Of a DNA stretch of 37,416 bases, positions 3,055 to 37,416 are shown piece by piece; position 1 is the first letter of the stretch, and each line of letters begins with the position of its first letter. This DNA is from a virus. Location of the stretch: the IMG/VR virus record IMGVR_UViG_3300036845_000599, positions 1 through 37,416 of that record; one strand, written 5' to 3'. The position numbers and the translations under genes are program-made. The notes below the pieces were generated by a model. The model did no database searches, was not told where the DNA came from, and worked only from the letters and a program-made list of their open reading frames with translations.

Positions 3055-4830
3055 ATGACCTGGAAAATCACCGACCCGCAAGGGCATGAGGCGGCGAAAG
3101 TCCGCTGGGAGCTGGTGCGCTGGACCCGCGGCCGCGGGCTCGACATCGGCGCCGGCATGACCCGCACCTTTCAGCACTTCATCACCGTCGATAACAACAT
3201 CGACGCGCAGCTCTTCGGCCACCCGATGCCCCGCCCGGACCTGTACGTCACCGACGGCGGGGACCTGTCGATCCTCGCCGACGCCTCCATGGACTTCATC
3301 TTCTCGTCCCACATGCTCGAGCACGTGGAGGAGGAGCGCCTGGTGAAGGTCTTACGCGAGTGGCTGCGCGTGCTCAAGATGGGCGGGCGCCTGATCCTGT
3401 ATCTCCCGGACGCGGACGAGTACCCGAAGGTGGGCGAGGAGGGCGCGAACAAGGATCACAAGTGGAACGTGACCTACAACCGGGTGCTGGAGCTCATGGG
3501 CCACACCGGGGTGGGCTTTGATCTCATGGACTACCAGAAGCGCAACGCCGGATTTGAGTACTCGTTGTTCTTTGTGTTCAAAAAGGCCCACGAGACCCCG
3601 CGCGCCTTCCACCACGATCGGCCGCGACCCACCGCCAAAACCTGCGCGGTGATCCGCTACGGGGCGATCGGCGACATGATGCAGGCGGCCTCGGTGCTGC
3701 GCGCCTTGAAGGAGGAGGGCTACCACACGACCCTCTACGCCGCCGAGGAGCCCAATGGCTGGGAGGTCCTGCAGCACGACCCGCATGTGGATGAGTTCTA
3801 CATCCAGGGGCGAGGCCAGGTCCCCGACCAGCACCTCCCGGAGTTCTGGGCCAACGAGCGCCCGAAGTACGACAAGTGGGCGAACCTCTGCGAGAGCGTG
3901 GAGGGCGGGCTCCTCGCGATGTCGAATCGCCCCGTCGACACCTACTCGCCCGTGGCGCGGCACCAGATGCTCGACTTCAACTACGTCGAGCGCCAGCACT
4001 TGATCGCCGGCGTCATGCAATATCCACCGCGCGTGCATTTTTATGCAAACGCCGCCGAGGTGAAGTGGGCGCACGCCGAGAAGAAGGCCTTCGGCCAGTT
4101 CCTGGTGCTCTGGTCGCTGTCCGGCTCCTCCGTGCATAAAGTGTGGCCGTGGGTCGATAACATCGTCTCAGGGCTGCTCTTGGACTTCCCCGAGGTCACG
4201 GTGGTGTTCGTCGGCGGCGCCGATGGCGTCATCCTCGAGCAGGGCTGGGAGCAGGCCACCGGGCGCGTACACCGCCGCGCCGGCAAGTACACCATCCGCG
4301 AGACCTTGAGCCTCGCGCAGATCGCCGACGTGGTGATCGGGCCCGAAACCGGCGTGCTCAATTCGGTGAGCCACGAGGAGATGCCCAAAGTCATCTTCCT
4401 GTCGCACTCCACGGTGGAGAACCTGACCCGCGACTGGTGCAACACCCACAGCCTGGTGTCGGTCGGCACCGTGTGCCAGGGCCGCGGCAACGATGAGGCG
4501 CCGGCGTGCCACCGCCTGCACCACGGCTGGGCCCGTTGCACGGAAGCCCCGCCGCTCCCCGGCACCGAGGATCAGCACGAGCGCAAGGGCTCCGGGATCG
4601 CCCAGTGCCAGATGGACATCGGCGCCGAGGACGCCTACCGGGTCATCTGGCACGTGGTGCAGTGGCGCCTCGAGGAGTACGCGAAGCGCGACGGTAAGCC
4701 GCCGCCCGGGGTGGTGAAGCTCACGGATGAGGAGGTGGCGCGCACCCGCGCGATGCTGCCGAAGTACATGGAGAACCCCGCCCAGGTGATCCAGGAGAAG
4801 CCGCCCGAGAAGAGCGTGCTCGAGGTGTAG
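3055..4830 (+). CDS. Methyltransferase-GT9 glycosyltransferase fusion
   Basis: A 591-residue two-domain enzyme. Residues about 25-180 are a class I SAM-dependent methyltransferase: motif I LDIGAGMTR at 29-37, an acidic loop after TVDNN, and SSHMLEHVEE at 84-93 of the Methyltransf_11 type. Residues about 195-590 resemble GT9 heptosyltransferases (WaaC/WaaF type): KTCAVIRYGAIGDMMQA opens a Rossmann fold, and the second half contains VVIGPETGVLNSVSH, the position of the nucleotide-sugar site. GT9 enzymes normally move heptose from ADP-heptose to LPS core. The start ATG has GAGGAG before it. It lies inside the virion module although it is an enzyme, and genes for ADP-heptose synthesis lie at 27382-30454. 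The acceptor could be LPS, a virion protein or another glycan. Domain calls are strong, substrate unknown. Confidence 0.8.
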   Translation: MTWKITDPQGHEAAKVRWELVRWTRGRGLDIGAGMTRTFQHFITVDNNIDAQLFGHPMPRPDLYVTDGGDLSILADASMDFIFSSHMLEHVEEERLVKVLREWLRVLKMGGRLILYLPDADEYPKVGEEGANKDHKWNVTYNRVLELMGHTGVGFDLMDYQKRNAGFEYSLFFVFKKAHETPRAFHHDRPRPTAKTCAVIRYGAIGDMMQAASVLRALKEEGYHTTLYAAEEPNGWEVLQHDPHVDEFYIQGRGQVPDQHLPEFWANERPKYDKWANLCESVEGGLLAMSNRPVDTYSPVARHQMLDFNYVERQHLIAGVMQYPPRVHFYANAAEVKWAHAEKKAFGQFLVLWSLSGSSVHKVWPWVDNIVSGLLLDFPEVTVVFVGGADGVILEQGWEQATGRVHRRAGKYTIRETLSLAQIADVVIGPETGVLNSVSHEEMPKVIFLSHSTVENLTRDWCNTHSLVSVGTVCQGRGNDEAPACHRLHHGWARCTEAPPLPGTEDQHERKGSGIAQCQMDIGAEDAYRVIWHVVQWRLEEYAKRDGKPPPGVVKLTDEEVARTRAMLPKYMENPAQVIQEKPPEKSVLEV

Positions 4831-4834
4831 CGCG

Positions 4835-5875
4835 ATGACGGACTTGAACTTAGGTGGCGTGCAAAACCCGCAGCAGCCGGCGACCTCGGGGGTCTACACC
4901 TTTGCGCTGGTCCGGGACGACATCATCCGCGATGCCATGCAGAACTTGGCGCTCCTCGAGGAGAGCGAGATCCCGACCGCGCGCGAGATCACCGACTGCG
5001 CCCGCAAGTTGAACCTGTGCGTGAAGCAGCTGGCCGGCACCATGGACAAGGCGCCGGGGTGGAAGATGTGGACCCGCGAGCGCGGCGACTTGTTTCTGAC
5101 GAGCTCGCAGAACGCCTACGACTTAGGCGTCCTGGGCGATCACTGGGCGGGCGGGGTGACCGGGCGGGCGGAACCCCAGACCTACAACGCCACCACCTTG
5201 AGCGCAACGCTGGCGCCCGGCGCGACCGTGCTGCCCGTCCCCTCGACGGTGGCGATGAACATCAACGACTTCATCGGGATCTTGATCGGTGCAGACCTGT
5301 ACTGGACCACCATCGCGGCGGTGAACGCCGGGGTCTCGGTGGTGATCCCGGCGCCGGGTCTCTCGGGGGCCGCGGCCGCCGGCGCGCAGATTTTCAACTA
5401 CACCAAACAAGCCCAGCGCCCGGTGCAGATCGAGACCGGCGTGCTGCACTACCCGCAAGGCAACGATGACCCCTTGACCGCGATGACGCTCCCCGTCTAC
5501 GAGGCGCTGCCCACCAAGAACATGCCCGGCAACGTGCAGGACCCGACCGCGTTTTACTACGAGCCGCGCTTGAAGAATCTCGCCGGGCGCCTCTTCATCG
5601 ATTGCTGGGGCGCGCAGGATGTCACGCGGGTGCTGCACTTCGTGTTCCTGCGCCAGATCCAGGACTTCGTGAACCCGGGCGACCTGCCCGACTTCCCGCA
5701 GGAGTGGTACAACCTGCTTTGCTGGGATTTGACCTTCGCCATCCACTCCGTGTTCGACGTCGATTGGACCGCCGGCATGCAGGCGCAGTACGCCCGGGCG
5801 ATCACCCCGGCGCGCGAGTCGAACCCCTCGCGGGACGCGGCCTTCTTCCAGCCCGACGATGAGGACGGCAATTGA
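4835..5875 (+). CDS. Head-completion / head-tail connector protein, gp4-like
   Basis: 346 residues. The N-terminal 90 residues (RDDIIRDAMQNLALL, then a helix with KLNLCVKQL and a GWKMWTRERGDL turn) follow the pattern of phage head-to-tail adaptor proteins of the P22 gp4 type. The middle is beta-rich, and the C-terminus has a LPDFPQEW segment typical of this longer podovirus version. P22 gp4 itself is much shorter (about 166 residues). It sits directly before the gp10-like gene, as gp4 does in P22 order. Probable role: closing the portal vertex and joining the short tail. Confidence 0.6.
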   Translation: MTDLNLGGVQNPQQPATSGVYTFALVRDDIIRDAMQNLALLEESEIPTAREITDCARKLNLCVKQLAGTMDKAPGWKMWTRERGDLFLTSSQNAYDLGVLGDHWAGGVTGRAEPQTYNATTLSATLAPGATVLPVPSTVAMNINDFIGILIGADLYWTTIAAVNAGVSVVIPAPGLSGAAAAGAQIFNYTKQAQRPVQIETGVLHYPQGNDDPLTAMTLPVYEALPTKNMPGNVQDPTAFYYEPRLKNLAGRLFIDCWGAQDVTRVLHFVFLRQIQDFVNPGDLPDFPQEWYNLLCWDLTFAIHSVFDVDWTAGMQAQYARAITPARESNPSRDAAFFQPDDEDGN

Positions 5876-7359
5876 ACCCGGTGCCCCTCTTCGGGTCCGG
5901 CGTCTACGGCAAGAGCGCGGTGGTGACCCGCCAGCGGCGCGTGAACTGCTACTACGAGATGCGCGCCGATGGCGATAAGGCGAAGGTGGTGGTCTACGGG
6001 ACGCCCGGCCTGGTGCTGCTCTTCAACGTCTCCCAGCCCGGGAACCTGCCCTTGCGGGCGATGCTGTGCGCGAACGAGACGGCGCTCTACGCGGTGCAGG
6101 GCAACCAGTTCTTGAGCTTGAACAGTGCGGGCGCGGCGCTCTTCGCCGGCGGCATCAACACCATCGGCGGGCTGTGCTCGCTCGCCCCTAGCCCCAACGG
6201 CGCGCAGATCGTGCTGGTGGACGGGGTGGGCGGCTGGGTGTACCAGCCGGGCGCCGGGACCTTCCTCGCGGTGCCGAACGGCCTCTGGTTCGTGCCGGGC
6301 GCCATGACCGTGACCCAGGTCGGGGGCTACTTCGTCACCGAGATTCCGGGCACCAACCAGTTCGGCGTCTCGAACTTAAACGACGCCACCACCGGGTCCG
6401 CCCTCTCCTTCGGGGCGATCGCCGCCTTCCCCGACATCTGCGTGGCGGTCGATAACGTGGCCGGGAACTTAGTCGCCTTCGGCAACACGCACCTGGAGTT
6501 CTGGCAGCCGCAGGGCTTCCCGCCGCCGGCGAACCCCTTCGCGCCCATTCAGTCGGCCACCGTGCAGGTGGGCCTGGCGGCGGTCTTCTCGCGCGCGCAC
6601 GTCGCCTCGCAGCTGCTCTTCTTAGGAAAAGAGACCACCGGCACCAAGCGGGTGTACGCGGTCAACAACTACGCGGTGACGCCGATCTCGGACGAGATCG
6701 ACTGGATAGTGAACCAGCCGGGGTTCGTGGTCACCGACGCGGTGGGCCTCTCCTACCAGCGCGACAAGCACCCCTTCTACCAGCTCACCTTCCCGACCGC
6801 GAACCGCTCGTTCCTGTACGACTTATCCACAGGTATCTGGAACGAGACGCAGACGGGCCTGACCACCGGCGGGCCGGTGCGCCACCAGGGGAACCTCTCG
6901 AGCTACTACGGCGCGGTGAACAACGGCGACACCCTGGTGACCGACTGGAAGAACGGCAACGTGTACCGCTTCGATGATGCGACCTACACCGACAACGGCG
7001 TGCCGATCCTGCGCGAGATCGTGACCAAGTTTCAGATCAAGGGATACAACCGCTTCCGGATCCCGCAGATCTACTTGGACATGGAGACGGGCGTCGGGCT
7101 CCCGGGCGTGCTCTCGGGCACACCGGCGCAGGGGGTGAACCCACAGCTCTCCGCGGAAGTGTCGAAAGACAACGGCCGCACCTTCCTCGCGCCGCGGCTG
7201 ATACCACTGGGTGTGCAAGGCTCATACGTCACCAAAGTCAAGGCCCGCCGCTTCGGCCAGGCGCGCGTCTTCGGCTTCCGTTTCCGCTTCACGGACCCCT
7301 GCAAGTTCGTGATCACCGACGGCGCCATCCAGGTAAAAATGAGCAAGGGGGGCAAATGA
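5872..7359 (+). CDS. Packaged-DNA stabilisation protein, P22 gp10-like
   Basis: 495 residues, close to the length of P22 gp10 (472). The N-terminus (GSGVYGKSAVVTRQRRVNCY) matches the family pattern in which a short loop is followed by a statement of protein identity and a PG turn (GTPGLVLLF). Repeated beta blades follow, and the C-terminus RRFGQARVFGFRFRF matches the closing strand of Phage_stabilise (PF11134). It would form the tail hub that plugs the portal and keeps DNA inside. It starts at TTG 5872, overlapping the preceding TGA (TTGA), which implies coupled translation. Within it, at 6823-6831, is a chance TTATCCACA. Confidence 0.8.
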   Translation: MNPVPLFGSGVYGKSAVVTRQRRVNCYYEMRADGDKAKVVVYGTPGLVLLFNVSQPGNLPLRAMLCANETALYAVQGNQFLSLNSAGAALFAGGINTIGGLCSLAPSPNGAQIVLVDGVGGWVYQPGAGTFLAVPNGLWFVPGAMTVTQVGGYFVTEIPGTNQFGVSNLNDATTGSALSFGAIAAFPDICVAVDNVAGNLVAFGNTHLEFWQPQGFPPPANPFAPIQSATVQVGLAAVFSRAHVASQLLFLGKETTGTKRVYAVNNYAVTPISDEIDWIVNQPGFVVTDAVGLSYQRDKHPFYQLTFPTANRSFLYDLSTGIWNETQTGLTTGGPVRHQGNLSSYYGAVNNGDTLVTDWKNGNVYRFDDATYTDNGVPILREIVTKFQIKGYNRFRIPQIYLDMETGVGLPGVLSGTPAQGVNPQLSAEVSKDNGRTFLAPRLIPLGVQGSYVTKVKARRFGQARVFGFRFRFTDPCKFVITDGAIQVKMSKGGK

Positions 7360-29697: not shown

Positions 29698-30014
29698 GTG
29701 ACCTGATCGGACTCGATCGAGTGTTGGACGACATCAAGCGAAAGCGCCAGCGCCAGGTGGTGGTGCACCGCTGGACCCGGGCGCATGACGACACGCACAC
29801 CGAGGGCGAGCTCGGCCGCGGCGCGATCACCTTCATCCAAGCGGCGTACATGACGGAGCTCGGCCTCAATCGGGAGGAGCTGCCGGTGTTCTGGCCCTTC
29901 GACTGGGTGGAGGGTGAGGGCAAACCGAACATCGACCAGCCGCGGCGCGAATTGCTGGTCAACGCCGCGGCGCTGCTCGTGGCCGAGCTCGAGCGTCTGG
30001 ACCGAATCCCATGA
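29694..30014 (+). CDS. Small acidic/mixed protein, unknown
   Basis: 106 residues, ATGA overlap. Basic first third, then acidic with a DWVEGEGKPNIDQPRRELLV segment and a C-terminal helix of Leu/Ala/Glu (LLVNAAALLVAELERL), of a type seen in phage proteins of unknown role that help nucleotide or DNA metabolism. No catalytic motif recognised. Confidence 0.5.
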   Translation: MSDLIGLDRVLDDIKRKRQRQVVVHRWTRAHDDTHTEGELGRGAITFIQAAYMTELGLNREELPVFWPFDWVEGEGKPNIDQPRRELLVNAAALLVAELERLDRIP

Positions 30015-30454
30015 AGGTGGGGCTGTGCACCGGCTGCTTCGATCTCCTGCACGAGGGGCACCTGTATTTCCTCGAGCAGGCGACGGACGCGTGCGACTAT
30101 CTGGTGGTGGCGGTCAACTCCGACCGCTCGGTGGCGCGCTTGAAGGGACCGGGGCGCCCTGTGCATAACTTGCAGGACCGGCTCTACAACCTCATGGCGC
30201 GCGCCCCCGGGGCGGGCGCCTTCGTCCCCTTCGACGGCGATCATGAGCGGCTGATCATGTGCGTGCGCCCCGATGTGGTCATCAAGGGATACGATCACGG
30301 CACGGTGAACGAGGAGGTCTACGCCGCCCGCCGGCCGGGCTGGAAGGACCAGGCACACGGCATGGATATAATCCCAGTGGTGCGTGCGAAACATCTCAAA
30401 GGCTACTCGACTACCTTGCAAATCGCGCAAGCGATGGGTAAAACGAACGCGTGA
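30011..30454 (+). CDS. hldC: HldC-like adenylyltransferase (RfaE domain II)
   Basis: 147 residues, near the usual 150-160. A cytidylyltransferase-superfamily enzyme: GCFDLLHEGH (8-17) with the HxGH motif, VNSDRSVARLKGPGRP (35-50), VIKGYDHGT and the family-specific GYSTT (131-135). It would join heptose-1-phosphate to AMP from ATP, giving ADP-heptose. The usual KGGDY is KGYDH. Encoded separately from the kinase, as in the HldA/HldC arrangement. ATG 30011 overlaps the previous stop by 4 bases. GmhB phosphatase and HldD epimerase are absent from the window, so host enzymes may fill those steps. Confidence 0.9.
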   Translation: MKVGLCTGCFDLLHEGHLYFLEQATDACDYLVVAVNSDRSVARLKGPGRPVHNLQDRLYNLMARAPGAGAFVPFDGDHERLIMCVRPDVVIKGYDHGTVNEEVYAARRPGWKDQAHGMDIIPVVRAKHLKGYSTTLQIAQAMGKTNA

Positions 30455-31420: not shown

Positions 31421-33007
31421 GTGCGGGAGCTCATCCCCCGCCCCGTCGCCGAGCTCGTCCCCTACGCCAAGAACGCGGCGATCCACACCGACGAGGACGT
31501 GGCGCAGATTGCGGCGTCGATCACCGAGTTCGGCTGGACCTCGCCGGTCCTGATCGACGAGGACGGCGCGATCATCGCCGGCCACGGCCGCGTGCTCGCC
31601 GCGCAATACCTCAACATGGTCGAGGTGCCGACCATCACCTTGGAAGGCCTGACCCCCGCCCAGGTCAAAGCCTACCGCCTGGCCGACAATCGCCTGCCGC
31701 GCAACGCCGGCTGGAACGAGGAGCTGCTGGCCCTCGAGCTGCAGGACTTGAAGGCCCTGGGCTTTAACCTTGATCTCACCGGCTTCGACAAGATGGAGCA
31801 GCTGCAGTTTTTGGACTGGAAGGTGCCCGGCGAGCACGAGAGTGCCTCGGACGAGCTCCCGGCCGTGCTCCTGGCCCCCGTGTCCGAACGTGGCACGGTG
31901 TGGCAGTTGGGCCCGCACCGGGTCATGTGCGGGGACAGCACCGCGGCGGACGATGTAGCGCAGCTGCTCGAGGGCGCGGACAAGGCGGCGCTGCTGCACG
32001 CGGACCCGCCCTACGGCATGGGCAAGGAGGCGGACGGGGTGTTGGGCGACAACCAGTACGGGGCCGAGCTCGACGCCTTCCAGATGCGCTGGTGGGCCGC
32101 CTGGCTGCCGTACCTCGAGAGCAACGCCGCCGCCTATATCTGGGGCAACCCCTTGGACCTGTGGCGCCTGTGGCACGGCTCCCTCGAGCGCTCCGGGTGC
32201 ATGACGTACCGCAACGAGATCGTCTGGAACAAGGGCAGCGCCCCCGGCATGGCCTCGCACGAGCGGCGCATGTACACCACGGTGACGGAGCGGTGCTTAT
32301 TTTTCATGCTCGGGCGCCAGGCCTTCGGCAACACCAACAAGGACGACTACTGGGACGGCTTCGAGCCGCTGCGCCGCTACCTCGAGGGCGAGGCGCAGAA
32401 GATGCGCTGGTCGGCGAAGCACATCCAGACCATCACCGGGGTGGGGATGTACGGCCATTGGTTCTCCAAATCCCAGTGGGTGATGATCCCGCGCAAGCAC
32501 TACCAGGCGTTGCAGGAGGCGGCCGAGGGGGCCGCCTTCACCCGCCCCTTCCTCGAGCTGCGGGCGGAATACGACCGCCTCTTGGGCTCGGGCGGGCACC
32601 TGGCACCGAAGGCCGAGTTCTACGACTCGCGCGCCTACTTCGACAACACCCACGAGGTGATGACCGAGGTGTGGGAGTTCTCCCGGGTGGTGGGCGAGGA
32701 GCGCTTCAGCCACGCGACGCCGAAGCCGGTGAAGATGATCGAGCGGGCCATCAAGAGCGCGGCGCCCTCCGGTGCGCTGGTGCTCGAGCCCTTCGGCGGC
32801 ACGGGCTCCACGCTCCTCGCGGCGGCCGGTCTCGGGCGCACCTGCTACAGCATGGAATTGGAGCCGCGGTATGTGGACGTGATCGTGCGGCGCTGGCAGG
32901 CCTTTACCGGGGAAGAGGCGTTCAACTCGGCCGGGCAATCCTTCACCGAGGCGGAGAAAATTACCGCCTATAAAGAGCAGGAACGTGGCGCACCAGCCGA
33001 CGCTTGA
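31421..33007 (+). CDS. ParB-N / DNA methyltransferase fusion
   Basis: 528 residues from GTG 31421. Residues 1-110 are a ParB-like nuclease/DNA-binding domain: IPRPVAELVPYAKNAAIHTD, then DGAIIAGHGRVLAAQ (48-62). Residues about 155-500 are a DNA methyltransferase with DPPY at 195-198 and VLEPFGGTGSTLLAAAGLG from 454, motif IV before motif I as in beta-class N6-adenine / N4-cytosine enzymes. This fusion is common next to phage terminases. It probably methylates phage DNA to avoid restriction or to mark packaging or replication sites. Confidence 0.85.
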   Translation: MRELIPRPVAELVPYAKNAAIHTDEDVAQIAASITEFGWTSPVLIDEDGAIIAGHGRVLAAQYLNMVEVPTITLEGLTPAQVKAYRLADNRLPRNAGWNEELLALELQDLKALGFNLDLTGFDKMEQLQFLDWKVPGEHESASDELPAVLLAPVSERGTVWQLGPHRVMCGDSTAADDVAQLLEGADKAALLHADPPYGMGKEADGVLGDNQYGAELDAFQMRWWAAWLPYLESNAAAYIWGNPLDLWRLWHGSLERSGCMTYRNEIVWNKGSAPGMASHERRMYTTVTERCLFFMLGRQAFGNTNKDDYWDGFEPLRRYLEGEAQKMRWSAKHIQTITGVGMYGHWFSKSQWVMIPRKHYQALQEAAEGAAFTRPFLELRAEYDRLLGSGGHLAPKAEFYDSRAYFDNTHEVMTEVWEFSRVVGEERFSHATPKPVKMIERAIKSAAPSGALVLEPFGGTGSTLLAAAGLGRTCYSMELEPRYVDVIVRRWQAFTGEEAFNSAGQSFTEAEKITAYKEQERGAPADA

Positions 33008-33446
33008 GACCCGCAAGACCGTCGAGAACGCCTCGGGCCTGGGAATCCCGCAAGAATCGATCGCGATCCTGCTCGAGATCACGCCGAAGACCTTGCGCCG
33101 CAAGTACCGCCGCGAGCTCGACCAGGGCAAGGCGAAGATGGACGTCACCGCCGGCGGTCAGATTGCGAAGGGCATCCTGCGCGGCGACACCGGGCTCCTG
33201 ATCTTCTACGCTCGCACCCGCATGGGGTGGAAGCCGCCGCCGACCGAGATCACGACGCCGCCCGATCGGCCGCTTGAGACCAAAACCTACGTGTCGGGGT
33301 CGCCCGAGCTCCTGGCGGACTACTATGCAAAGATTGCTCAAGCAGCCGCTGCCGCTGATACCGATCCCACAGCTCCTCGCATTGTGGGACCAGGAGGACG
33401 GGGGGGGGACGAACCGGAAGAAGATCCGGAGCTTGGCCCTCGGTGA
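32985..33446 (+). CDS. terS: Terminase small subunit-like protein
   Basis: 153 residues from GTG 32985, overlapping the methyltransferase stop by 23 bases. A helix-turn-helix occupies about 15-45 (ASGLGIPQESIAILL, then ITPKTLRRKYRRELDQGK), followed by a helix with GDTGLLIFYARTRMGWK, the pattern of phage small terminase or DNA-recognition proteins. The C-terminus is acidic (GGDEPEEDPELGPR). Directly precedes the large subunit and shares 122 bases with it across a G9 run. It would recognise the packaging site and regulate the motor. Confidence 0.65.
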   Translation: MAHQPTLETRKTVENASGLGIPQESIAILLEITPKTLRRKYRRELDQGKAKMDVTAGGQIAKGILRGDTGLLIFYARTRMGWKPPPTEITTPPDRPLETKTYVSGSPELLADYYAKIAQAAAAADTDPTAPRIVGPGGRGGDEPEEDPELGPR

Positions 33447-34917
33447 TCGCTTCTACCTCCTGGTCAAGGTCCTAAAGCGCGGCGACTGCCTGCACCCGTG
33501 GATTTACGCTCGGTGCCGCGAGGTCGAGGCGGCGCCGGACAACCACTTGGACCTCTGGGCCCGCGAGCACTACAAGTCCACCATCATCACCTTCGCCGGG
33601 ATCATCCAGGAGCTCTTGAACGACGCCGAGCTCACGGTGGCGATCTTCTCGCACAGCAAGCCGATCGCGAAGGCTTTCCTGCGCCAAATCCAGCGCGAGT
33701 TCGAGAAGAACGACACCTTGAAGGAGCTTTTTCCTGAGATTCTGTGGGCGAACCCCGAGCGCGAGGCGCCGCTCTGGGCCCTGGACGACGGGATAGTCCT
33801 CAAGCGCCAGGGGAACCCGAAGGAGGCGACGATCGAGGCGCACGGCCTGGTGGACGGGCAGCCGACGTCGCGCCACTTCGCCCTTCGGGTGTATGACGAC
33901 GTGGTGACCCGCGAGAGCGTGGCGACGCCCGAGCAGATCGAGAAGACCACCGGCGCCTGGTCGCTCTCGGACAACTTGGGCAAAGTGGGCGGGCGAGTGT
34001 GGATGGTCGGCACCCGCTACAACTTCGCCGACACCTACAGCGTGGTGATCAAGCGCGGCGCCGCCATCCCCCGGGTGTACGCCGCCACGCACAACGGGCT
34101 GCGCGACGGCCGCCCGGTGCTCCTGTCCCCGAAGGCCTGGGCGGAGAAGCTGGTCAAGCAGTTGGACGCCGACATCGCGTGCCAGATGCTCTTGAACCCC
34201 GTGGCGGGCCAGCAGCGCTTCTTCGACCCGGACAACCTGCGGGCGTATGAGACTCGCCCTGCGGTGCTGGCCGCGTACCTGACCATCGACCCGGCCCGCT
34301 CGAAGAAGAAGGGCAGCGCCAACACCGCGATGGCCGTGCAGGGCATCGACATCCACGGCCAGAAGTACCTGCTGGACGGCTTCGATCACAAGATGGACCT
34401 GGCCGAGCGCTGGACCAACATGCGCGACCTTCGCAACAAGTGGCACCGCATGCCCGGGGTGATCTCCTTGAAGGTGGGCTACGAGACCTACGGCGCGCAG
34501 GCGGACATGGACTACTTCGAGGAGCGCATGCGCCTCGAGAACAACCGCTTCGAGATCGTGGAGCTCGAGTGGCCGAACGAGGGGTCGGGCGGCAAGGATG
34601 ACCGGGTGCAGCGCTTAGGGCCCGATCTCAAGGCCCACGCCTACTTCCTGCCCCACCCCACGGACTACGACGAGCTCACCCCCGCCCAGGTGCGCATGAT
34701 CGCCGCCGGCTACGAGTACCGGCTCTCGCAGAAGATCGAGCAGTTGGACGAGAACGGGCTAAAGTACGACCTCGCCGAGCGCCTGGCCATGCAGGTCGGC
34801 TTCTACCCGTTCACGGGACTTAAGGACCTCATCGATGCAGTGGCGAGAATCTACGACATGGATCCGCGTCCGCCCCAGTGGGTGGAGGAAGGGCCGATCG
34901 AGCCGGACGAGGTGTGA
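33325..34917 (+). CDS. terL: Terminase large subunit
   Basis: 530 residues from ATG 33325; a TTG at about 33433 is a possible later start that would remove the overlap. The ATPase half has an adapted Walker A, DLWAREHYKSTIIT (76-89), and Walker B LRVYDDVVT (187-195). A nuclease half follows, with TIDPARSKKKG (320-330) and a GYETYGAQADMDYFEERM segment of RNase H-like type. It cuts concatemers and pumps DNA into the head through the portal. Confidence 0.85.
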   Translation: MQRLLKQPLPLIPIPQLLALWDQEDGGGTNRKKIRSLALGDRFYLLVKVLKRGDCLHPWIYARCREVEAAPDNHLDLWAREHYKSTIITFAGIIQELLNDAELTVAIFSHSKPIAKAFLRQIQREFEKNDTLKELFPEILWANPEREAPLWALDDGIVLKRQGNPKEATIEAHGLVDGQPTSRHFALRVYDDVVTRESVATPEQIEKTTGAWSLSDNLGKVGGRVWMVGTRYNFADTYSVVIKRGAAIPRVYAATHNGLRDGRPVLLSPKAWAEKLVKQLDADIACQMLLNPVAGQQRFFDPDNLRAYETRPAVLAAYLTIDPARSKKKGSANTAMAVQGIDIHGQKYLLDGFDHKMDLAERWTNMRDLRNKWHRMPGVISLKVGYETYGAQADMDYFEERMRLENNRFEIVELEWPNEGSGGKDDRVQRLGPDLKAHAYFLPHPTDYDELTPAQVRMIAAGYEYRLSQKIEQLDENGLKYDLAERLAMQVGFYPFTGLKDLIDAVARIYDMDPRPPQWVEEGPIEPDEV

Positions 34918-34995
34918 GTGATTACCATGGGCATCATCCTCGGGGTGGGCAAGCTCGTGGCCTGGTGGAGGGGGCGTGGGAAGGCGCGACCTTAG
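34918..34995 (+). CDS. Possible micro-protein after terL
   Basis: 25 residues from GTG 34918, abutting the terL stop. A short hydrophobic segment (TMGIILGVGKLVAWW) and an Arg/Lys end suggest a membrane-anchored peptide. Overlaps the next small gene. Low support beyond position. Confidence 0.35.
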   Translation: MITMGIILGVGKLVAWWRGRGKARP

Positions 34996-35149
34996 CCACG
35001 ACGAGATCTCGCAATTGCGGGCCTACGCTCGCAAATTGCCCGACCAGGTGGTAAAAGACCGCATCGAACGCCTGTGCGGCGAAGTGCTCGAGCTGCGTGA
35101 CCGGGAAGCCTCCGTGCGACACATGAACGACCTCGAAGGAGAGTGGTGA
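34976..35149 (+). CDS. Small helical protein
   Basis: 57 residues from GTG 34976, with GGAGGGGG just upstream. A single charged helical region (ISQLRAYARKLPDQVVKDRI, then ERLCGEVLELRDREASVR). Stop and next start share TGATG. Too short to name. Confidence 0.55.
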   Translation: MGRRDLSHDEISQLRAYARKLPDQVVKDRIERLCGEVLELRDREASVRHMNDLEGEW

Positions 35150-35346
35150 TGCCCGCGCCGATCCTGCCCGCCTCCCTCGGCAAGCCCGTGACCACGCGCC
35201 AGTTCTCCTGGAAGGAGATGGTGATCCGCCAGTGGGGCAGCGAGTACGCGGCGCCCGATCACCGCATCTACAACTTCTCGAACGGCCGGTCCTTCGACTC
35301 CACGGACTTGGGCACCACGGGCATCTACCGGCGGCCGGGCTCGTGA
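35149..35346 (+). CDS. Small unknown protein
   Basis: 65 residues from ATG 35149. WKEMVIRQWGSEYAAPDHRI followed by a NFSNGRSFDSTDLGTTGIY segment; no known motif. It sits between terminase and later packaging-region genes, often the place of small head-module proteins. Confidence 0.5.
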   Translation: MPAPILPASLGKPVTTRQFSWKEMVIRQWGSEYAAPDHRIYNFSNGRSFDSTDLGTTGIYRRPGS

Positions 35347-35672
35347 AGATCGACCTCCCGGACGGGAGCATGTCGGATGTGCCGGGCGGCGCGCGGATGA
35401 TCCACGCCGAGGCCGCGAAGGTCACCGAGAACAATGCGGCGATCGCCGACCTCGCCGCCTTTCGCCAGAACAAAATCGACAACCCGAAGGAGGGCGACAA
35501 GCCGCCGGCGGGCTACGAGCAGGTGCGCCTCATCGGCTGCATCCACTGCCAGACGGCGGTGTTCCAGCTCACCCACGATCATCGCGTCGCCTGCGCCACC
35601 TGCAAGATCATCATCGACCCCCTGCGCTGGTACGACGTCAACTATCCGCCGCCACCGGACGCCGTGGCGTAA
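35343..35672 (+). CDS. Zinc-ribbon small protein
   Basis: 109 residues from GTG 35343 (GTGA). C-terminal half contains CIHCQTAVFQLTHDHRVACA followed by TCK, a Cys4 zinc ribbon. Ends in a Pro-rich stretch. DNA or RNA binding plausible. No family named. Confidence 0.6.
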   Translation: MKIDLPDGSMSDVPGGARMIHAEAAKVTENNAAIADLAAFRQNKIDNPKEGDKPPAGYEQVRLIGCIHCQTAVFQLTHDHRVACATCKIIIDPLRWYDVNYPPPPDAVA

Positions 35673-35690
35673 ATCCCAAGGAGATGACCG

Positions 35691-36005
35691 ATGAACGCAG
35701 CAGAATCCGCGATCGAGCAAGAGATCCAGGCCAAGGGCTTGACCGCCCCGCGCCTCACCCCCGATTTGATCGACGCGGCGATCGCCGGCGAGGACTACCA
35801 CGTGTTCGAGGGCACCACGCTCACCGTGTGTTGCCTCACCTTGCGCAACGGCTTTACCGTGGTCGGCGAGTCGGCCGCGGCGTCGCCGGCCAACTTCAAC
35901 GCCGAGCTCGGGCGCAAGATCGCCCGCGATCACGCGCGCAACAAGATCTGGGCCCTCGAGGGCTACCGGCTGAAAGAGCAGCTCTACAACGCCACCAAGG
36001 AGTAA
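35691..36005 (+). CDS. Phage_gp49_66 family protein
   Basis: 104 residues; ATG follows AAGGAGATG. TAPRLTPDLIDAAIAGEDYH, then VCCLTLRNGFTVVGESAAAS, NFNAELGRKIARDHARNKIW and a final EGYRLKEQL, matching the Pfam family Phage_gp49_66 (PF13876), common in phages and of unknown function. The family call is confident from motif order. Confidence 0.8.
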   Translation: MNAAESAIEQEIQAKGLTAPRLTPDLIDAAIAGEDYHVFEGTTLTVCCLTLRNGFTVVGESAAASPANFNAELGRKIARDHARNKIWALEGYRLKEQLYNATKE

Positions 36006-36011
36006 CCGACG

Positions 36012-36146
36012 ATGGACGAACCCAAGATTCCTGATCCGATCGCGAGCGAGGCGCCGCCGCTGGAACCGCCCGCCTGTCTTCCCTGGGTGAACGGCATGAC
36101 GTGGAACGGCGTGGAGCCGAAGTCCCCGAGCTGGGCCGAAGGATGA
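36012..36146 (+). CDS. Pro-rich micro-protein
   Basis: 44 residues from ATG 36012, ending on an ATGA junction with the DUF2829 gene. Acidic, Pro-rich start and a WVNGMTWNGVEPKSPSW segment. Translational coupling to the next gene suggests it is real. Function unknown. Confidence 0.5.
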   Translation: MDEPKIPDPIASEAPPLEPPACLPWVNGMTWNGVEPKSPSWAEG

Positions 36147-36373
36147 TCGCGCCCAACACGATCGGCTGGGCCATCAAGCAAATGCAGAACGGGAGCAAGG
36201 TCACCCGCGCTGGATGGAACGGCCCGAACCAGTACCTCGAGCTGCAGGTCCCGGACGCCAACAGCAAGATGACGAAGCCCTACGTCTTCATCACGACTGC
36301 CGCCGGCGATCGGATCCCGTGGTTCGCGTCGCAGACCGATCTGCTCGGCACCGACTGGGCGGTGGTAGCGTGA
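36143..36373 (+). CDS. tad2: DUF2829 protein, Tad2-like candidate anti-Thoeris factor
   Basis: 76 residues, ATGA start. The motifs match the DUF2829 fold: IGWAIKQMQNGSKVTRAGWN (7-26), YLELQVPDANSK (31-42), KPYVFITT (45-52) and PWFASQTDLLGTDW (59-72). Known Tad2 proteins of this family bind the signalling molecule made by Thoeris TIR-domain enzymes and so disarm that defence. Members may differ in ligand, so sequestration is inferred from family. Likely cytoplasmic, acting early after infection. Neighbours are unrelated small genes in the packaging module. Confidence 0.75.
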   Translation: MIAPNTIGWAIKQMQNGSKVTRAGWNGPNQYLELQVPDANSKMTKPYVFITTAAGDRIPWFASQTDLLGTDWAVVA

Positions 36374-36666
36374 TCCCGCCCACCATTGGCCGCGTAGTCC
36401 TGGTCCAGAAGCGCCCGGGATCACTCGACATTACCCAGCCGGAGGCGGCCTTCATCACCAAGGTGTGGAGCGATCGGCTGATCAACGTCGGGGGCTTCAA
36501 CGCCAACGGCACACCCTTCGGAGAGACATCGGTCCCGTTGCTGCAGGACGATGACCCGGCGACGCTCGGGCCCTACGCCGAGTGGATGCCCTACCAGAAG
36601 GGCCAGGCGGCGAAGACCGAGGCCCTGGAGGCCAAGCTCAAGGGCGATGCGCCGCCACCAGCTTGA
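36370..36666 (+). CDS. Small conserved phage protein
   Basis: 98 residues from GTG 36370 (GTGA). PTIGRVVLVQKRPGSL, AAFITKVWSDRLINVGGF and a terminal YAEWMPYQKGQAAKTEAL segment follow a widespread small phage protein of unknown function. Often found beside DUF2829 or gp49-like genes. Tail overlaps the next start. Confidence 0.65.
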   Translation: MIPPTIGRVVLVQKRPGSLDITQPEAAFITKVWSDRLINVGGFNANGTPFGETSVPLLQDDDPATLGPYAEWMPYQKGQAAKTEALEAKLKGDAPPPA

Positions 36667-37066
36667 ATCCGGCCTCCAGGTCGTCACCGAGGAGGGTGAC
36701 CCGGAGGAACAGGGCGACATGGCCCTGGCGAAGGACCTGGGCGTCACCTTGAACCGCCACTACGAGCACCACCCGTGGGTGATCGACGTGCAAGGCGGCG
36801 CCCTGATCCTGCGCCACCGGGTCATCACCCGCGTGGCGGACGAGTTCTTGAAGCGCTCGGGGTTCGGCTATCTCATGCCCCCCCACAAGCGCGGCACCTA
36901 CCACGAGACCATGCGCTCGGCGGTGAACGCCGGCGGCGCCATGCTCGAGCTCTTCGGCCTGCCGCGAGGGCGCAACCCCTTCCCCGACGAGGAGGAACTG
37001 TACCGCTCGGGGCTCATCCAGATTCCGCGCGACTGGGTGAAGGGCAAGACGAGGGCCTTCGGGTGA
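36647..37066 (+). CDS. Unknown soluble protein
   Basis: 139 residues from ATG 36647, overlapping the previous gene by 20 bases. Acidic N-terminus, then DLGVTLNRHYEHHPWVIDVQ, FLKRSGFGYLMPPHKRGTYH and FGLPRGRNPFPDEEELYRSG. No catalytic signature recognised. Well-formed protein, role unknown. Confidence 0.55.
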   Translation: MRRHQLESGLQVVTEEGDPEEQGDMALAKDLGVTLNRHYEHHPWVIDVQGGALILRHRVITRVADEFLKRSGFGYLMPPHKRGTYHETMRSAVNAGGAMLELFGLPRGRNPFPDEEELYRSGLIQIPRDWVKGKTRAFG

Positions 37067-37230
37067 GCACCGTGCACGTCATGGTTAGAACCCAGGCGGA
37101 CGACCCCTGCCAGCGCGAGTGGACGACCGTGCAGGCGACATCGCTCGAGGACGCGCATGTGGTGGCGCTGCAGCGGCCCGACGTGCTGCAGGTCTACGAG
37201 GTCGCTTGGGACCCGGGCTACATCACGTGA
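37063..37230 (+). CDS. Small unknown protein
   Basis: 55 residues, GTG start in GTGA, ends GTGA with the next gene. Short beta-rich sequence (VHVMVRTQADDPCQREWTTV, then VVALQRPDVLQVYEVAW). No motif. Confidence 0.5.
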   Translation: MSTVHVMVRTQADDPCQREWTTVQATSLEDAHVVALQRPDVLQVYEVAWDPGYIT

Positions 37231-37416
37231 CCACCCTCGAGGAGAAGCTGTACCTCGCGCTCCTGGGCGCCCGCACGATCGTGGCGGCCACCGCGAATGT
37301 GAACCCCGCCGCGGGCAAGTTCCTGCGGCTGGTGGACGATGGATTGAAGGCGTACCGCGACGCCAAGCGCAAGGAGCCGGCGGAGCCGGTGAGGGAGATC
37401 GAACATGCCGATGGAG
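37227..37416 (+). CDS. Unknown protein (3' partial)
   Basis: Starts at GTG 37227 and stays open to the right edge, giving at least 63 residues: a Leu/Ala helix (EEKLYLALLGARTIVAATAN), KFLRLVDDGLKAYRDAKRKE and a Glu/Pro stretch. Might be a small portal-proximal protein; the end lies outside the window. Confidence 0.45.
   Translation, partial: MTTLEEKLYLALLGARTIVAATANVNPAAGKFLRLVDDGLKAYRDAKRKEPAEPVREIEHADG

Follow-up and report, generated by a model that had tools for sequence, protein, structure and literature searches.

The gene at positions 36143-36373 of the window (the whole 37,416-nucleotide stretch of DNA analysed here, a complete linear IMG/VR virus record) encodes a compact member of the Tad2 family. 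This protein is probably a sponge for an ADP-ribose signal made by TIR proteins, carried as exchangeable cargo downstream of the terminase large subunit (TerL) gene, beside a predicted sponge of the Acb4 family and a protein of the phrog_2293 family. When an annotated phage collection was searched, neither near-identical DNA nor a close relative of the window was found. The genes concerned are the following, the handles L254 to L259 designating loci of related viruses.

33274-34917, plus strand: TerL (phrog_38, E 3.8e-35), upstream anchor of the syntenic block; its true start may lie further in.
35343-35672, plus strand: zinc-ribbon-like CxxC protein of 109 aa that bounds the variable slot on its left side; present in L254, L255, L256, L257 and L259.
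35691-36005, plus strand: Acb4 family protein (PF13876, Phage_gp49_66) of 104 aa, predicted anti-CBASS sponge, assigned with Pfam and phmmer.
36012-36146, plus strand: 44-aa ORF, read from the sequence, whose stop overlaps the Tad2-like start (ATGA); 52% identical in the sibling L254.
36143-36373, plus strand: Tad2-like protein (PF11195, DUF2829) of 76 aa, compact form, assigned with Pfam, AlphaFold2 (AF2) and a fold match.
36370-36666, plus strand: phrog_2293 family protein of 98 aa, candidate third counter-defence component (PHROG E 3.4e-13; AF2).
36647-37066, plus strand: 139-aa protein that forms the conserved border of the slot on its right side; found downstream of the slot in L254, L255, L256 and L259.

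The Tad2-like ORF is intact, with an ATG start and a TGA stop. An alternative GTG at position 36101 offers a possible N-terminal extension of the frame. Two points favoured the ATG at 36143, namely its overlap with the stop of the 44-aa ORF and the length of close relatives, which mostly measure about 71-80 aa. Downstream, the TGA stop overlaps the GTG start (36370) of the phrog_2293 gene; since both ends of the Tad2-like gene overlap their neighbours, the genes were read as a single tightly packed run. The 44-aa ORF gave no match in Pfam or PHROG, and NCBIfam and PADLOC gave none for the Acb4-like, Tad2-like and phrog_2293 proteins.

Residues 6-75 of the 76-aa protein span positions 2-73 of the 73-position PF11195 profile (E 1.2e-21, 77.5 bits for a cut-off of 25). 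The protein also matches phrog_1048, phrog_872 and each of the seven distinct Tad2/AcrIIA7 sequences in the PDB. The initial annotation had assigned it to DUF2829, which is PF11195, on the basis of two motifs, and both were found, RAGWNG at residues 22-27 and PWFASQTDLL..DW at residues 59-72. Given the Pfam match and the concordant fold, this Tad2-like identity is correct, and the anti-Thoeris function predicted from it is plausible.

In order to examine the fold, a monomer was modelled with AF2 on an alignment of 46 compact Tad2-like sequences (pLDDT 89.2) and compared with known structures by Foldseek and VIA-align. The model matched all solved Tad2 entries with Z values of 10.7-12.3, the best unrelated chain reaching 5.6. 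Among these entries were SPO1 Tad2 in its apo form (Z 12.3) and with 1''-3' gcADPR (Z 11.9), ModTad2 with His-ADPR (Z 11.4) and HgmTad2 with 1',2'-cADPR (Z 11.3). The Tad2 pocket has been described as formed between two protomers, one contributing the beta1-beta2 loop, the beta3-beta4 loop and beta4, the other the beta1-beta2 loop, the beta4-alpha3 loop and alpha3 (review, PMC12043709). Three regions of the window protein were delimited, the first and the last from conservation and from this published geometry.

36206-36232, plus strand: residues 22-30 (RAGWNGPNQ), forming the beta1-beta2 loop, which in Tad2 contributes to the pocket.
36245-36283, plus strand: short beta2-beta3 connection, residues 35-47 (QVPDANSKMTKPY), replacing a longer segment of SPO1 Tad2.
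36317-36358, plus strand: residues 59-72 (PWFASQTDLLGTDW), forming the beta4-alpha3 region, which in Tad2 likewise contributes to the pocket.

Across the 46 compact sequences, R22, W25 and N26 of the first region are invariant, as are P59, W60, Q64, D66, D71 and W72 of the last. The short connection contains seven further invariant residues (Q35, P37, S41, K42, M43, P46 and Y47). Many SPO1 Tad2 chains resolve just 74-77 residues and others 84-96, which suggests that the middle segment of SPO1 Tad2 is partly mobile and that the loss of such a segment would be compatible with the fold. By our reading, the 13 residues missing relative to SPO1 Tad2 belong to the region of helix alpha2, reported in the dimer interface of SPO1 Tad2 (PMC12043709), and a tetramer of the SPO1 type is not assured. 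We infer that the compact protein would assemble as an oligomer, in which one subunit would contribute its RxGWNG loop to each pocket and a second subunit its PWxxSQTD segment. Such pockets would hold the TIR-made ADP-ribose signal, either a gcADPR isomer or His-ADPR, and, with the signal thus held, the host Thoeris effector would stay inactive.

The position of the protein within the family was also considered. In a 72-column tree, all 103 sequences bearing the PDxxSKMTxPY motif and 28 sequences lacking the strict motif were placed opposite SPO1 Tad2 and ModTad2 with a support of 0.66, a split that is suggestive only. On sequence grounds, the 76-aa protein may tentatively be placed in a compact Tad2 branch, apart from SPO1 Tad2 and ModTad2; no experimentally tested member of this branch was found. 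Ligands are known to differ within PF11195, SPO1 Tad2 binding gcADPR and ModTad2 His-ADPR. Some Tad2 proteins also bind cyclic dinucleotides, a property ascribed to an insertion between beta2 and beta5 (PMC12043709). This long insertion is missing in the window protein, which falls 13 residues short even of SPO1 Tad2, and binding of cyclic dinucleotides in the SptTad2 mode is thus unlikely.

A related reading is that the protein is a sponge whose specificity has shifted to another nucleotide, a cyclic dinucleotide or an undescribed TIR product, through the shortened beta2-beta3 connection with its PDxxSKMTxPY motif. The diversity of ligands already seen in PF11195 speaks for it, as does the motif itself, which is near-invariant in the 46 compact sequences and missing from SPO1 Tad2 and ModTad2. 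However, the insertion that serves cyclic dinucleotides in other Tad2 proteins is lacking, and the protein retains RxGWNG and SQTD, the elements close to the gcADPR pocket, so that we regard this shift in specificity as unlikely.

The surroundings of the gene were then compared with those of related viruses. In relatives whose TerL is 71-75% identical, the gene order is TerL, a 57-aa, a 65-aa, the 109-aa and the 139-aa protein and, later, a 63-aa protein. Between the 109-aa gene, whose product contains two CxxC pairs as read from the sequence, and the 139-aa gene lies a variable slot. In L259 and L256 this slot is empty and the two border genes abut, and in L255 it is occupied by a different small ORF. 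In the sibling L254, whose TerL is 99% identical, the slot contains Acb4 (96% identical) and diverged counterparts of the 44-aa ORF and of the phrog_2293 protein (the latter 56% identical), without a Tad2-like gene. This pattern of presence and absence across relatives indicates that the Tad2-like gene is optional cargo at a defined site. In the same region, the 65-aa ORF at 35149-35346, which belongs to no known family, is better conserved than TerL in relatives (98% versus 74% identity in L255, 94% versus 76% in L257 and 84% versus 75% in L259).

A housekeeping role in the phage, for instance in packaging or structure, in which the Tad2 fold would serve no counter-defence, agrees with the location of the gene downstream of TerL and with that of several relatives near terminase or portal genes. 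It was rejected as very improbable, given that the gene is missing in the sibling with a 99% identical TerL, that the whole slot is empty in other viruses, and that relatives also adjoin genes for ribonucleotide reductase, clamp loader, lysis proteins and NAMPT. Inhibition of another system, after the example of the type II CRISPR-Cas inhibitor AcrIIA7, is likewise very improbable: the HgmTad2/AcrIIA7 chains, labelled 'Inhibitor of Type II CRISPR-Cas system', do match the model (Z 10.7-11.4), but they were solved with 1',2'-cADPR and cGG, and signal binding is better supported.

A sponge for a TIR-made ADP-ribose signal is the preferred reading. Early expression of the protein, which the initial annotation had deduced from its location beside packaging genes, found no such backing. 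The genes lie downstream of TerL in the same orientation, where expression is usually late, and a promoter scan gave no support, no sigma-70-like promoter being found in 32900-37416.

The strongest contextual support for a counter-defence role is the Acb4 homolog located two genes upstream of the Tad2-like gene, which had not been pointed out in the initial annotation. Its product covers the whole PF13876 profile (positions 1-82 of 82; E 8.7e-31, 106.7 bits for a cut-off of 27) and aligns over the core with the SPO1 Acb4 crystal chain 9e4w (phmmer E 4.5e-4). PF13876 is the Acb4 family, of which the SPO1 member sequesters 3'3'-cGAMP (Chang et al., PMC11722364), and all eight homologs tested (8/8) bound this molecule (PMC11722364). 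When the published cGAMP pocket residues were mapped on the window protein, F48, F62 and N63 were found to be kept and I66 to be replaced by L; K36, E49, V56, Y57 and T70 are altered, the E49 to T change being common to this protein and gp48 of coliphage N4. The latter is both required and sufficient to trigger Panoptes in the manner of an Acb4, and it acts as an Acb4 in cells (PMC12657230). By its family, the window neighbour would be a sponge for the cyclic dinucleotides of CBASS.

Two other phages provided observations on these families. In N4, gp49 (L171:2755-3237) and phrog_9467 match each other in their N-terminal parts, and phrog_9467 in turn matches Acb4-family proteins through its C-terminal part, which points to a possible fourth shared module; no phrog_2293 gene was found in the N4 stretch examined. 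In Salmonella phage epsilon15 (L415, 2465-2830), an Acb4-family gene adjoins the terminase genes, runs opposite to them and lies by an annotated terminator; it resembles an independent cargo gene.

In order to follow the association of the three families, loci were gathered around relatives of each protein by tight peptide patterns, and their ORFs were searched with iterated profiles. Whenever two of the families occurred in one locus, they shared a strand and lay unusually near each other. Acb4 and Tad2 were at most 500 nt apart in 14 of the 19 loci containing both, where random placement would give 2.2; the corresponding numbers were 15 of 21 for Acb4 and phrog_2293 (2.7 expected) and 9 of 13 for Tad2 and phrog_2293 (1.4 expected). 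None of 5000 random placements reached the observed counts of close gaps. Part of this signal could arise because small accessory genes are packed together at short range. Furthermore, fusions were seen for all three pairs: Acb4 with Tad2 in a single ORF (L022), phrog_2293 with Acb4 (L031, L232, L241, L332 and L357) and phrog_2293 with Tad2 (L092 and L328). The PF13876 and PF11195 parts of these fusions were confirmed by Pfam, and the phrog_2293 part by PHROGs for L031, L092, L232, L328, L332 and L357.

The same association was examined in 78 whole genomes chosen solely for holding a Tad2-like gene. PF13876 was present in ten of them, always as a single copy, and eight of these copies lay at the Tad2 locus, the remaining two being located about 7 and about 14 kb from it on the same contig. 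Four of the 78 genomes contained phrog_2293, at the Tad2 locus in three cases. Compared with 33 dereplicated control loci, Acb4 was enriched in phrog_2293 loci (13/60 versus 0/33, p 0.002); the other enrichments were not significant against these controls (p 0.05-0.8), so that the argument for linkage rests on the spacing and on the single copies in whole genomes. Most of the 64 dereplicated Acb4 loci have neither partner nearby, Tad2 being found in two and phrog_2293 in three. The linkage of Acb4 with Tad2 may have been reported earlier, and no priority is claimed for it.

The phrog_2293 gene lies directly downstream of the Tad2-like gene. A WMPYQ motif is invariant in 38 sequences of the family, and the AF2 model (pLDDT 92.5) consists of a small SH3/Tudor-like barrel followed by a long C-terminal helix. 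The fold search returned middling SH3/Tudor-like matches (best Z 6.6), with no known sponge among them, and gave no evidence for a new fold. The protein is only 56% identical between the window and L254 (8824-9066), though TerL is 99% and Acb4 96% identical, which suggests, from the sequences compared, that this gene has recombined or is changing quickly. A counter-defence role is a reasonable guess, because the family is repeatedly fused to two sponge families. We tentatively raise the possibility that phrog_2293 represents a third counter-defence family, so far undescribed, whose small protein would probably bind a signal or block an effector and together with Acb4 and compact Tad2 would form a modular multi-sponge cassette assembled through fusion and swapping, the compact Tad2 perhaps having a ligand of its own.

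Sponge proteins have so far mostly been discovered singly. If confirmed, a recurring cassette with anti-CBASS, anti-Thoeris-type and third-partner components would lead to new counter-defence families by association, just as defence islands revealed defence systems. Coliphage N4, in which gp48, a demonstrated Acb4, lies beside the Tad2-like gp49, would be a practical laboratory model for this cassette. Since Acb proteins trigger the host Panoptes system, the make-up of the cassette may affect evasion and detection alike.

Some further observations concern other parts of the record and a related gene pair. A DNA methyltransferase fused to a ParB-like domain (31421-33007) is a possible anti-restriction gene, and a small cytidylyltransferase-like protein (30011-30454; PF01467, E 1.6e-11) is 91% identical in the sibling. 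The record begins within the major head protein (1-839) and ends soon past the cassette (36373-37416), and no portal gene was identified in it; the missing piece thus probably lies between the two ends. In Aeromonas phage Ahp1_CNU-2021 (L012), a compact Tad2-like gene (3968-4204) lies beside a nicotinamide phosphoribosyltransferase gene (4319-5896), a pairing that would fit a phage facing an NAD-depleting defence.

Among known systems, SPO1 Tad2 (gp34.65; PDB 8sme, 8smf, 8smg and 8wje) is also a small stand-alone phage protein; it resembles the window protein with Z values of 11.7-12.3, 36-37% identity over aligned residues and the RxGWNG and SQTD..DW elements, whereas the window protein is 13 residues shorter from beta2 to beta3 and has PDxxSKMTxPY there. 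ModTad2, from a Myroides odoratus prophage (PDB 9eib, with His-ADPR), shares the fold (Z 11.4) and the GWNG element; in contrast, it has TPSVSD at the place of FASQTD, a longer middle segment and His-ADPR as its ligand. HgmTad2/AcrIIA7 and SptTad2 (8kbi-8kbm, 8wjd; Z 10.7-11.4) are similar in their RxGWNGKGMF and WLASQTD elements and differ in the longer insertion that they carry. The Acb4-family neighbour corresponds to SPO1 Acb4 (PDB 9e4w) in its core alignment and in PF13876, but keeps the cGAMP pocket just partly. Finally, the gp48-gp49 pair of coliphage N4 resembles the arrangement described here in that a PF13876 gene is followed, there directly, by a PF11195 gene, gp49 being distinguished from the window Tad2-like protein by about 80 additional N-terminal residues.
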